Assembly (NCBI GenBank): GCA_032906765.1
Contig: JAJTZB010000002.1
Span: 1-64,000, forward strand
Reading direction: 5' to 3'
DNA length: 64,000 bases
DNA from: Nitrososphaerales archaeon
Lineage (GTDB): Archaea; Thermoproteota; Nitrososphaeria; Nitrososphaerales; Gagatemarchaeaceae
The position numbers were made by a program, and so were the translations under genes. The notes beneath the pieces were generated by a model. The model searched no databases. It saw nothing but the letters and a program-made list of their open reading frames with translations, and had not been told where the DNA came from. This document shows positions 16,196 through 26,488 of this stretch, piece by piece. How positions within the stretch are numbered: position 1 is the stretch's first letter; every line of letters starts with the position of its first letter.

Positions 16196-16804
16196 ATGGC
16201 TAAGACATACACACTTCCACCGCTACCATATGCATACAACGCATTAGAACCACACATCTCCGAGAAGACCATGACACTCCATCACACGAAGAACCACCAA
16301 GCCTATGTGAACGGCGCGAACGCAGCCCTAGAGAAGCTTGAGAAGGCTAGAAGGGGCGAACTTCAGATAGACATGAGAGCAGTCCTAAGGGACTACAGCT
16401 TCGCAGTCGACGGCCACAAACTCCACTCCATCTTCTGGCCGAACATGGCTCCCTCCGGAAAAGGCGGAGGTACCCCTGGAGGCAAGCTTGCGGACAAGAT
16501 CAACAAGGACTTCGGCGGTTTCGACAAATTCAGGTCCCAGTTCACCGACGCAGCCAAGACGGTCGAGGGCAGCGGGTGGGCCCTTCTCCTTTACGACAAG
16601 GAAATCGACCAACTTGTCATGACCCAAGTCGAAAAGCAGAACTTCATGCACCTGGCTCAGATGCCCATACTCCTCGGGCTCGATCTTTGGGAGCACGCAT
16701 GGGTCTTTGACTACGGCACAGATCGTCCGAAATACATTGAAGCGTGGTGGAACGTCGTCAACTGGTCCGATGTGGACTCTAGACTGGGGAAGGCCTCGGG
16801 TTAG
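16196..16804 (+). CDS. sod: Fe/Mn superoxide dismutase
   Basis: A 202-residue enzyme converting superoxide to oxygen and hydrogen peroxide. The four metal ligands are His29 (MTLHHTKNHQAYV), His77 (HSIFWPNM), Asp163 and His167 (LDLWEHAWVFDY). GGTPGG and the C-terminal WWNVVNW block are standard for the family. The ATG at 16196 fits both homology and the upstream TATA box. The metal (Fe, Mn or either) cannot be decided by eye. It implies oxygen exposure, in line with the haem O and haem A synthases in the window. Its last 26 bases overlap the convergent LAGLIDADG gene. Confidence 0.95.
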   Translation: MAKTYTLPPLPYAYNALEPHISEKTMTLHHTKNHQAYVNGANAALEKLEKARRGELQIDMRAVLRDYSFAVDGHKLHSIFWPNMAPSGKGGGTPGGKLADKINKDFGGFDKFRSQFTDAAKTVEGSGWALLLYDKEIDQLVMTQVEKQNFMHLAQMPILLGLDLWEHAWVFDYGTDRPKYIEAWWNVVNWSDVDSRLGKASG

Positions 16805-17861
16805 TCTTCCCCAATTCCCGTTTTTCGTACTCTTCGCGAGCCACCCGTGAATAATCGGCCACTGCGTCCTTGATGTCTCTCCGGAAGGCTTCTACCAGCT
16901 GTTCGACCTCCACCCACCGTTCACTTGCACTGAAACTGAGGACTAGTTCTCTACGCCGCATCTTTTCCTCATGCATTAGCGGAAGACTTGGCAGAATCGC
17001 CCCGACCTCACTGGCACGTTGGAGCTGCAGCGACATCATGTCCTCGCGATGGCGAATCTTCCGGGTGGGAGTTACGTAGCCCTTCTTTGCTGAAACGTAT
17101 GGCCCGGTCGGGTGAAACCCTGCTTCAGAGAGCTCTCTTTTGAGGTGCTGAAGTAGTTCCATGTCTTGGTTTGCAATGACAAGGTTCACCCGTAGATATT
17201 TCCCAGACCGAACTATCCCTATCGTACCGTCTGAATCCACCAGCCCGGCCAGCCAGGCGAGGAACGCTTCTGGGTCCTCCAGATATCTCGGTCGATCCCT
17301 CCTGATTTCGGGCAGCATGAATGAAAAGCTGTCATCGAGTCTTGCGGCGACCTTCCATCTGTATCCGCCGGTCCTGTCGAAAACAGGGTAGTGATACACT
17401 GGACCATACCCTTGGAACAGGGATCTGAAGCAAGAGGAAAATGCGGGATGGGTGGTAGTCGACGAGGCCATTACGGCCTCGCTACTCACTTTTCTTACGT
17501 CCAGGTCACCTTCCGCAAACCCTTCAAGGTACCTCCGGCAGCGAAGACATCCATCGAACGGGGTCTTCGTCCGCATTGTCCTCTTTGGTGCTGAGAGCCT
17601 GTTCGCTTCGGCTGGCGTTCGAGTCTTAACCGCTAGCCTTCTAGAGAGCCCCCACACAAAAGTAAACGACCTGTCCAACATTTTCGAGATCTCAAGGAGT
17701 GACAACCCCATGGTGTTGTGCAATTCGTCCACTGCGTCTCGGATGGCGTCGACTTCCTCGCGTTGTAACGACCCGAGGTCTAGGCGTTTAGTCTTCGGTA
17801 TTCGCTCCAGCAGCTTTTCGGTTTCGCTCTGGCGTGTGTCTCTGCCTGATTCAGGCAACAA
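16779..17861 (-). CDS. Free-standing LAGLIDADG-family protein
   Basis: A 360-residue protein with two LAGLIDADG helices, YLEGFAEGDLD (111-121) and LAWLAGLVDSDGTIGI (201-216), each ending in an acidic residue able to bind the catalytic metal. The N-terminal 100 residues include a helix-turn-helix-like stretch (LSLLEISKMLDRSFTFVWGL). The family comprises homing endonucleases, RNA maturases and some transcription regulators. There is no intron or intein around it, so it is free-standing. TTG 17861 is the likely start, with TTAATAG about 20-25 bases upstream on the minus strand. The 3' end overlaps sod, which a recently inserted gene could cause. Confidence 0.75.
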   Translation of the reverse strand: MLPESGRDTRQSETEKLLERIPKTKRLDLGSLQREEVDAIRDAVDELHNTMGLSLLEISKMLDRSFTFVWGLSRRLAVKTRTPAEANRLSAPKRTMRTKTPFDGCLRCRRYLEGFAEGDLDVRKVSSEAVMASSTTTHPAFSSCFRSLFQGYGPVYHYPVFDRTGGYRWKVAARLDDSFSFMLPEIRRDRPRYLEDPEAFLAWLAGLVDSDGTIGIVRSGKYLRVNLVIANQDMELLQHLKRELSEAGFHPTGPYVSAKKGYVTPTRKIRHREDMMSLQLQRASEVGAILPSLPLMHEEKMRRRELVLSFSASERWVEVEQLVEAFRRDIKDAVADYSRVAREEYEKRELGKTNPRPSPV

Positions 17862-21579: not shown

Positions 21580-21735
21580 TCCCGCGGGTCGGAAACACGC
21601 GCGCGAAGCGCGTTTCGAGCCGACGACACTCCGGTTACTGTTGCCTGTGTAGGCTGGACGGGTCAGCCGAGAGCCGACCACTACAGCCGGAAGCTATTGG
21701 CTCCTTTCGGATCTACCAGGCTGAGCTACCGCGGG
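21580..21735 (-). tRNA. trnY: tRNA-Tyr (GTA anticodon) with three apparent introns
   Basis: Read on the minus strand, CCCGCGG (21735-21729) pairs with CCGCGGG (21587-21581), followed by discriminator A at 21580. The C1-G72 pair is the archaeal tRNA-Tyr identity element. A 17-base intron (21712-21696) splits the D-stem; its AGA and ATA bulges flank a TGGT/GCCA helix and it is capped by TCC-GAAA-GGA. A 45-base intron (21680-21636) lies after position 37; CTGT/ACAG with bulges AGT and TAA forms a canonical bulge-helix-bulge. A roughly 20-base GC-rich insert (about 21613-21594) lies in the T-loop. Removing all three gives 74 bases with four regular arms, anticodon GTA at 21684-21682 and D-arm GCTC-AGCCTGGTA-GAGC. 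Position 54 is C instead of T, an oddity. CCA is not encoded. Confidence 0.85.
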
Positions 21736-21760: not shown

Positions 21761-21767
21761 CTTAAAA
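21761..21767 (-). promoter_or_regulatory. TATA box of tRNA-Tyr
   Basis: On the minus strand TTTTAAG lies 26-32 bases upstream of the first tRNA base, the usual position for an archaeal stable-RNA promoter. Confidence 0.55.
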
Positions 21768-21781
21768 GTGTTTATGAGACC

Positions 21782-22147
21782 TTAACTGAGCAAGATTTCT
21801 CTCGCCTTCTTCCTCGTCTTCCTGACGGTCTTAGCCGGCTCAAGTATCAACCTCTCAAGCTCTAAGTCTCTCACCGCCTTCTCGGTTTTCACCCTGCTCT
21901 TGAAATGCTTAGCGAATATTGCGCTCTCCTCTATCGGTAGCCAGAGGTCATACCCGGTGTTCTTCCGTGCTATGCGACACTTTTCGATTCCCAACTCCCT
22001 CCGTAGTGCGCCGCGAATCTTCTCCAACGGCCTCGGGTCTCTCTGGGTGATAACGATCCTTCTATGCAGACGACCGACCGAGCCCTCGGTCTCAAACCAG
22101 TTCTCCACATCCCGCAGGTCCCACTCTCGAGAATTGGGCTCGCTCAA
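21782..22147 (-). CDS. Half-size LAGLIDADG-family protein
   Basis: A 121-residue basic protein with a single LAGLIDADG-type helix, VENWFETEGSVG (14-25), followed by the beta-strand pattern of the fold (RIVITQRDPRPLEKIRGAL, then YDLWLPIEESAIFAKHF). Single-motif members act as homodimers that cut or bind palindromic sites, or serve as RNA-binding cofactors. The start is TTG at 22147, with GGAGGAGAGG just upstream. It ends 46 bases upstream of the intron-bearing tRNA-Tyr on the same strand. It is not inside an intron, so a link to the tRNA introns is only suggested by position. Confidence 0.65.
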   Translation of the reverse strand: MSEPNSREWDLRDVENWFETEGSVGRLHRRIVITQRDPRPLEKIRGALRRELGIEKCRIARKNTGYDLWLPIEESAIFAKHFKSRVKTEKAVRDLELERLILEPAKTVRKTRKKAREILLS

Positions 22148-25399: not shown

Positions 25400-26488
25400 T
25401 TGGACACTGAGACGAGGCTCGAGTGCGTAAGGCGGGTTGGCGAAGAGATCATCACGGAGAAAGAACTCCGAGAGCTGTTCGAGACGAACAACCATCCCTC
25501 AGCCTACGACGGCTTTGAGCCGAGCGGCCTCGCCCACATTGCCTTCGGCGTCCTGCGAGCGATTAACATAGCCGACCTCCAAAAGGCCGGAGTCCACGTA
25601 AAGCTCTGGATCGCTGACTGGTTCGCCTGGCTGAACAACAAGATGGGAGGCGACCTTGAAAAGATACAGGATGTCGGCCGCTACTTCATCGAGGTCTGGA
25701 AGGCTGCAGGGGTAGATATGACGGACGTCGAGATTCTTTGGACGAGCGACGCGGTGAAGGGAGACGACTACTGGAAGAAGGTAATCAGGGTGGCGCAGAA
25801 CGTGACTCTTGCGAGGAGCAGCAGGGCGATTACCATAGCGGGAAGGACGTCAAAGGACCTCATTCAGACATCCACTGTGATGTACCCGATCATGCAGGTG
25901 GCTGACATCTTCTGGCTGGACGTAGACATCTGCCAGCTCGGGGTGGACCAACGCAGGGCCAACATCCTGGCGAGGGAGGTGGCTGAGAAGCTCCGATGGA
26001 AGAAGCCCGTCGCCGTGCACCACCACATGCTGATGGGCCTGCAGGGTGTGAAGGAACCCGAGGGTTTCGACGAGAACACAGCGATAGACAGGGAGATAGC
26101 GAGCAAGATGAGCAAGAGCAAACCGGAGACCTCGATTTCTGTGCACGACACGACCGAGGAGATATCCAAGAAGCTTGGACTCGCATACTGCCCTGCCAAG
26201 GTCATTCAAGGAAACCCGGTACTAGAGTACTCGAAGTACATCGTATTCAGGAAGGCCACCTCGCTGAAGGTCGAGCGGACTCAGAAGTACGGCGGGAACG
26301 TCGAGTTCGGGTCCTACGAAGAACTGGAGACGGCATACAGGAGTGGGTCGCTCCATCCGGCAGACCTCAAGAGGAGCGTGGCCGCCGCGTTAGATACTTG
26401 TGTCTCCCCCATAAGGAGCCACTTCGAGAAAGACCCTTCAGCGAAGAGGCTCTACGCGGCGGTCCGTTCAGCAGAGGTCACACGATAG
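25400..26488 (+). CDS. tyrS: Tyrosyl-tRNA synthetase
   Basis: A 362-residue class I synthetase of the archaeal/eukaryotic TyrRS type. The HIGH-like motif is PSGLAHIAFG (41-50), and SKMSKSKP (235-242) carries the KMSKS loop. YPIMQVADIFWLDVDICQLG contains the tyrosine-pocket residues that separate TyrRS from TrpRS. It lacks the bacterial S4-like tail and reads the C1-G72 pair found in tRNA-Tyr. The start is TTG at 25400. The cognate tRNA-Tyr gene lies 3.7 kb upstream. Confidence 0.93.
   Translation: MDTETRLECVRRVGEEIITEKELRELFETNNHPSAYDGFEPSGLAHIAFGVLRAINIADLQKAGVHVKLWIADWFAWLNNKMGGDLEKIQDVGRYFIEVWKAAGVDMTDVEILWTSDAVKGDDYWKKVIRVAQNVTLARSSRAITIAGRTSKDLIQTSTVMYPIMQVADIFWLDVDICQLGVDQRRANILAREVAEKLRWKKPVAVHHHMLMGLQGVKEPEGFDENTAIDREIASKMSKSKPETSISVHDTTEEISKKLGLAYCPAKVIQGNPVLEYSKYIVFRKATSLKVERTQKYGGNVEFGSYEELETAYRSGSLHPADLKRSVAAALDTCVSPIRSHFEKDPSAKRLYAAVRSAEVTR

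Follow-up and report, generated by a model that had tools for sequence, protein, structure and literature searches.

A tRNA-Tyr(GUA) gene with three predicted introns in a Nitrososphaerales archaeon, and the possibility that its widely conserved anticodon-loop intron acts as a cis guide

The window analysed here, a stretch of 64,000 nucleotides on contig JAJTZB010000002.1 of an uncultured Nitrososphaerales archaeon, carries on its minus strand, from position 21735 to 21580, a tRNA-Tyr(GUA) gene that reads directly as four exons and three introns, with a precursor of 156 nt and a mature form of 74 nt without the introns. Exon 1 (nt 1-22; 21713 to 21735) comprises the acceptor strand CCCGCGG, TA, the D-stem strand GCTC, the D-loop AGCCTGGTA and G22, and is conserved across 33 same-family orthologues. 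It is followed at 22/23 by intron 1 (17 nt, ATCCGAAAGGAGCCAAT; 21696 to 21712), at which TGGT and GCCA form a central helix of 4/4 pairs with the bulges AG^A and AT^A. Exon 2 (nt 23-37; 21681 to 21695) reads AGC T TCCGG CTGTAG and contains the anticodon GTA (21684-21682), U35 being position 21683. Intron 2 (45 nt; 21636 to 21680) occupies the canonical site 37/38, forms two hairpins and has a bulge-helix-bulge (BHB) helix of CTGT (nt 32-35) with ACAG. Exon 3 (nt 38-59; 21614 to 21635) reads A CCGGA GTGTC GTCGG CTCGAA; intron 3, at 59/60 (20 nt, ACGCGCTTCGCGCGCGTGTT; 21594 to 21613), has a relaxed BHB with the central helix CTCG/CGTG (3/4) and the inner helix CGCG/CGCG (4/4), and exon 4 (nt 60-73; 21580 to 21593) completes the gene with T CCGAC CCGCGGG A. 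A TTTTAA at 21762 to 21767 on the same strand, approximately 27 nt upstream of nt 1, is by its position a possible TATA box. Immediately upstream of the tRNA gene lies a stand-alone LAGLIDADG-like open reading frame (21782-22147, minus strand; 121 aa; PF14528 just below cut-off), for which no homologue was found in the other loci fetched, most of these extending no more than approximately 1.5 kb past the tRNA. A second, unrelated-looking LAGLIDADG-like protein (360 aa; PF14528 likewise just below cut-off) is encoded at 16782-17861 on the minus strand. The TyrRS gene (25400-26485) is located on the other strand, 3.7 kb from the tRNA-Tyr gene.

Joining the exons yields CCCGCGGTAGCTCAGCCTGGTAGAGCTTCCGGCTGTAGACCGGAGTGTCGTCGGCTCGAATCCGACCCGCGGGA, a 74-nt tRNA-Tyr(GUA) with C1-G72, A73 and all stems fully paired. 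The central BHB helices of introns 1, 2 and 3 have 4/4, 4/4 and 3/4 pairs, and the inner helices 3/4, 3/4 and 4/4, respectively. Junction 3 reads GTCGG-CTCG-AAA-CGCG...CGCG-CGTG-TTT-CCGAC, a helix-bulge-helix-bulge-helix arrangement with one U.U mismatch, and is a relaxed BHB rather than a mere hairpin with a weak junction. Sequence, orthologues and BHB motifs agree in bearing out the original prediction of a tRNA-Tyr gene that has one intron each in D-arm, anticodon loop and T-loop; removal of 17, 45 and 20 nt at the proposed positions does leave a regular 74-nt tRNA-Tyr, direct reading of the minus strand gives the fully paired acceptor halves with C1-G72, and the first two junctions are BHBs as proposed. 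For the third insert, the place in the T-loop and the length hold, and the supposed weak junction is to be replaced by a relaxed BHB (3/4 central pairs). The nucleotide C54, which had been pointed out as unusual, is indeed so within this genome, the 36 other tRNAs with readable T-loops all having T54; in tRNA-Tyr, C54 is common to most relatives in the family.

The suspicion that standard finders may miss such a gene proved justified. ARAGORN reported zero tRNAs across the whole 64-kb window; the Rfam tRNA model (RF00005), applied genome-wide at E<=10, found 45 other loci and missed tRNA-Tyr, and Rfam searches at E<=1 over 15-28 kb returned chance-level matches only. R1, a covariance model built on the anticodon arm together with its intron, gave one match in the 1.77-Mb genome, at 21630-21687. 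No credible second GTA anticodon was present among the 45 tRNA-like hits, the lone match (in L037) not being tRNA-like. An intact tRNA-Tyr elsewhere, which had been named as evidence that would speak against the locus, was thus not found in the assembly, and the minus-strand gene at 21735-21580 is the only tRNA-Tyr(GUA) gene detected in these 1.77 Mb (13 contigs, 95.6% complete; a second copy could sit in a gap). Multi-intron tRNA genes are easily overlooked in annotation, so that genomes can seem to be without tRNA-Tyr. Many tRNAs of this genome exceed 85 nt and have introns at canonical and non-canonical sites, and several are only fragments to Rfam.

A whole-genome search of 60 relatives showed that almost every member of the family has the orthologue. 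Mean pairwise identity among 33 parsed same-family orthologues was 0.957 for the exons, 0.840 for the anticodon-loop intron (intron 2), 0.519 for the D-arm intron (intron 1) and 0.463 for the T-loop intron (intron 3), compared with 0.448 for the 5' flank and 0.222 for the 3' flank; the D-arm and T-loop introns diverge like flanking sequence. The T-loop intron is absent from L055, L058, L061, L065, L066, L072, L073 and L156, which have an ordinary 7-nt T-loop, and the D-arm intron is absent from L156, L157 and L158, both introns thus being absent from L156. The exons of these intron-minus relatives meet precisely at the predicted junctions of introns 1 and 3, which establishes these two sites, and the T-loop of L066, CTCGAAT, is the one predicted for the window gene after splicing. 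Intron 2 was present in every parsed gene, most of these genes having been found through intron 2. These comparisons suggest that intron 2 is ancestral and conserved, and that introns 1 and 3 are fast-changing and have been gained or lost within the family.

The third insert could instead be a permanently enlarged T-loop and not an intron, a reading favoured by the single mismatch in its central BHB helix. The eight close relatives with a 7-nt T-loop at the same junction, one of them identical to the predicted spliced form, argue against it, as do the many other genes that share the 59/60 site and have perfect BHBs there, and we regard it as highly improbable. The failure of standard finders at the locus might also point to a pseudogene or a chance arrangement of tRNA-like pieces; given that this is the only Tyr locus found in the genome and that its exons are strongly constrained, we attach practically no weight to that explanation. 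A LAGLIDADG homing intron was rejected as well, the introns of 17-45 nt encoding no endonuclease and the nearby LAGLIDADG-like reading frame lying outside the gene. Together, the sequence comparisons make it almost certain that the locus is a single functional tRNA-Tyr(GUA) gene with three BHB introns at 22/23, 37/38 and 59/60, which would be spliced by EndA to 74 nt.

Two EndA-type paralogues are encoded in the genome. Read by eye, L196 retains the Tyr, His and Lys expected of a catalytic subunit and L197 is without the His, and the two would fit an alpha-beta heteromer, as expected for relaxed introns. The endonuclease of Thaumarchaeota has been described as alpha2beta2, a type linked to non-canonical introns (PMC4090602), and the heteromeric type has been associated with such introns (PMC4033280). 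A two-subunit EndA-type endonuclease would cut the precursor at each BHB, and the exons would then be ligated into a normal 74-nt tRNA; transcription, cleavage, ligation and the order of removal of the three introns are here deduced from sequence.

R1 matched 272 of 300 genomes of the class and 144 of 300 genomes sampled from the phylum, approximately 50 of the latter being from the same order. The predicted anticodon-loop intron is of ancient date, with its sequence conserved in a large part of the phylum. The tRNA-Tyr genes of relatives were read and then parsed with one template in 154 genomes (genes), revealing eight intron sites: 9/10, 15/16, 22/23, 30/31, 37/38, 44/45, 53/54 and 59/60. 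Three introns were present in 47 of the 154 parsed genes, four in 24 and five in seven, these counts referring to genomes and not to independent events. The parsed genes mark tRNA-Tyr as a hotspot for introns throughout the phylum. The genes with five introns (L305, L322, L324, L327, L332, L333 and L334) come from five genera of one family (f62); their introns occupy 9/10, 30/31, 37/38, 53/54 and 59/60, with a central helix of 4/4 pairs at all junctions but one. The BHB parser scores fixed positions, and most four- and five-intron genes were checked by eye. A five-intron parse of L226 (G253), with BHBs of 1-2 of 4 at four junctions, was spurious and was excluded. In L307 the parser misplaced the 53/54 junction, four introns being evident nonetheless, and the splits that it set in the variable loop of L342, L343 and L344 were wrong. 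In the reviews consulted, the maximum stated for archaeal tRNA genes is three introns (PMC4033280, PMC8450103, PMC4390854), and full-text searches of freely accessible journal articles found nothing relevant on archaeal tRNA genes with four or five introns. The four- and five-intron genes exceed that maximum and show how far EndA can be pushed. Both the conservation of the anticodon-loop intron over much of the phylum and the extension of the gene family to five introns go beyond the original prediction.

Other loci of the survey have peculiarities of their own. In L244-L247, which have an intron at 9/10, the upstream leader repeats CCCGC, and a finder may misplace the 5' end. The 5' part of tRNA-Tyr is missing from L162 (G001:C229), with the break at nt 29-30, near the 30/31 site of other families; a split tRNA in G001 was considered, but with the 5' half nowhere else in the assembly, misassembly or loss is likelier. 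L245 and L265, in G063 (contig C13) and G084 (contig C4), have identical tRNA-Tyr regions, likely reflecting a mis-binned contig. The tRNA-Tyr introns of L382-L385 (family f27), about 63-70 nt long, are without the CAGC-N10-ACA element described below; they have a long, different hairpin whose internal loop is asymmetric and possibly kink-turn-like, and no ACA at the right distance.

Intron 2 of the window gene contains a first hairpin, GGTCGGCT...GGCTGACC (21661 to 21679, minus strand), which covaries in relatives: in alignment A1, 5/8 pairs are changed on both sides, with 22 doubly changed cells versus 7.1 in shuffles. On the same strand, CAGCC (21652 to 21656) is complementary to exon G30-G34 (GGCUG), directly 5' of U35. 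An ACA box (21639 to 21641) follows 15 nt downstream of the first C in CAGCC and belongs to the BHB strand ACAG as well. The consensus fold pairs GCUG with CAGC. An A-N-A box was found 14-16 nt after the first C of CAGC in 150 of 154 genes (in 127 it is ACA at a spacing of exactly 15 nt), a figure that describes genes with a recognisable element, many of them having been found by a model including CAGC and ACA, and that was obtained with some added freedom, the search allowing a [CT][AT]G[CT] start and a spacing of 14, 15 or 16 nt. The start was CAGC or CAGT in 140 of the 154 genes. The ACA also supplies the first three bases of the BHB strand ACAG in most genes; in 46, the BHB strand is elsewhere and the A-N-A box is kept, the next base (G when pairing C32 in the BHB) being G in 21 of these genes and another base in 25. 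This dissociation is less affected by the way the genes were selected, because the model tolerates shifts. As the A-N-A is kept though the BHB strand has moved, the box appears to be constrained for a reason other than splicing.

In archaeal H/ACA RNAs, the distance from the target uridine to the ACA is typically 14-16 nt, and AAA is an accepted variant (PMC7991803, PMC6313347); the same sources report Psi35 of pre-tRNA-Tyr to be H/ACA-guided in Sulfolobus. The spacing in intron 2 agrees with this rule, and on these grounds we propose tentatively, rating the idea somewhat below an even chance, that intron 2 acts in cis, and without a kink-turn, as an H/ACA-like guide for Psi35 in Nitrososphaeria and much of Thermoproteota. 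CAGCC would pair with exon G30-G34 beside U35, and the A-N-A box 15 nt away would dock Cbf5; U35 of the precursor would become Psi35, and the RNA would then switch to the BHB fold and splice. The ACA box would double as a strand of the splicing motif, with modification preceding splicing. Intron 2 may, on the other hand, be conserved only as a splicing scaffold, its two hairpins keeping the BHB helix open, with CAGCC...RRGC as the second of them, an explanation to which we give close to an even chance. The isolated anticodon arm folds in silico into the BHB form, its minimum-energy structure comprising the BHB helix and the hairpins GGUCGGCU/GGCUGACC and GCCU/AGGC; this fold and the covariation of the first hairpin argue for the scaffold and, in the case of the fold, against a guide. 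However, the second hairpin is mismatched without compensation in many relatives (CAGCA...AGGC, CAGCC...AAGC), and a scaffold leaves unexplained the A-N-A at 14-16 nt where the BHB strand has moved. The position of that box relative to the target, with its independence of the BHB strand in 46 genes, speaks for a guide, as do the complementarity of CAGC(C) to the target bases located 5' of the uridine and the family identity of 0.84 for intron 2 against approximately 0.5 for the other introns.

Several features of intron 2 depart from a guide RNA. No kink-turn or kink-loop was found in alignment A1, where the upper hairpin has 7-8 bp and a loop of 2-5 nt in most genes, and no 5' guide arm, the target being directly continuous with the upper hairpin; because of these two absences we term intron 2 H/ACA-like by hypothesis, and not an H/ACA RNA. 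Covariation is absent from the guide pairing, as its exon side does not vary. The lower stem is unproven: RRGC can pair with GCUU of the exon (24-27) in many genes but loses this pairing in those with a variant exon; a GCUU:RRGC stem was dropped, exons with GCUC, GCGC or GCAU not being compensated. TruD/Pus7 is the usual Psi35 enzyme. Its absence from 10 of 35 element-bearing genomes versus 0 of 22 element-less ones (approximately p=0.004, our own arithmetic) favours a guide, but the contrast is weak when counted by family (0/8 versus 7/24; approximately p=0.10, our own arithmetic) and not significant, and the genomes that lack TruD are MAGs, uneven in quality. Among the relatives, 8/61 are without TruD, and TruD, able to make Psi35, is present in the window's own genome. 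Should the element in the intron act as a guide in cis, the retention of one archaeal tRNA intron over deep time would be explained, and the box C/D guide of the tRNA-Trp intron would have, as far as we know, its first counterpart of the H/ACA type. The proposal makes the purpose of conserved tRNA introns directly testable.

The closest known arrangements are found in Thermoproteales, where Pyrobaculum tRNA-Glu(UUC) and tRNA-Pro(UGG) have three introns (PMC4390854). Those genes share with ours the presence of several short BHB introns, at the canonical position and at non-canonical ones, a lineage with heteromeric endonuclease and the failure of ordinary finders. They differ in class and isotype; in our survey one and the same tRNA has introns at recurring sites throughout the phylum, with four and five introns in some relatives. 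The tRNA-Ile(UAU) of Cyanidioschyzon merolae (PMC9602550) has the same layout, with introns in the D-, anticodon and T-arms, but this red alga is a eukaryote and the isotype is another, and a common origin is without evidence. The pre-tRNA-Trp intron of Haloferax (PMC11408192) is, like intron 2, a canonical archaeal tRNA intron, and it is conserved as the carrier of a modification guide for its own tRNA; it is a box C/D guide for 2'-O-methylation (Cm34, Um39), whereas the candidate described here is H/ACA-like and aimed at Psi35. The H/ACA sRNA for Psi35 of pre-tRNA-Tyr in Sulfolobus solfataricus, cited in PMC7991803 and PMC6313347, has the same target, U35, and the same class of machinery; the guide there is a separate, trans-acting RNA, whereas our candidate is the intron itself, which would act in cis and without a kink-turn.
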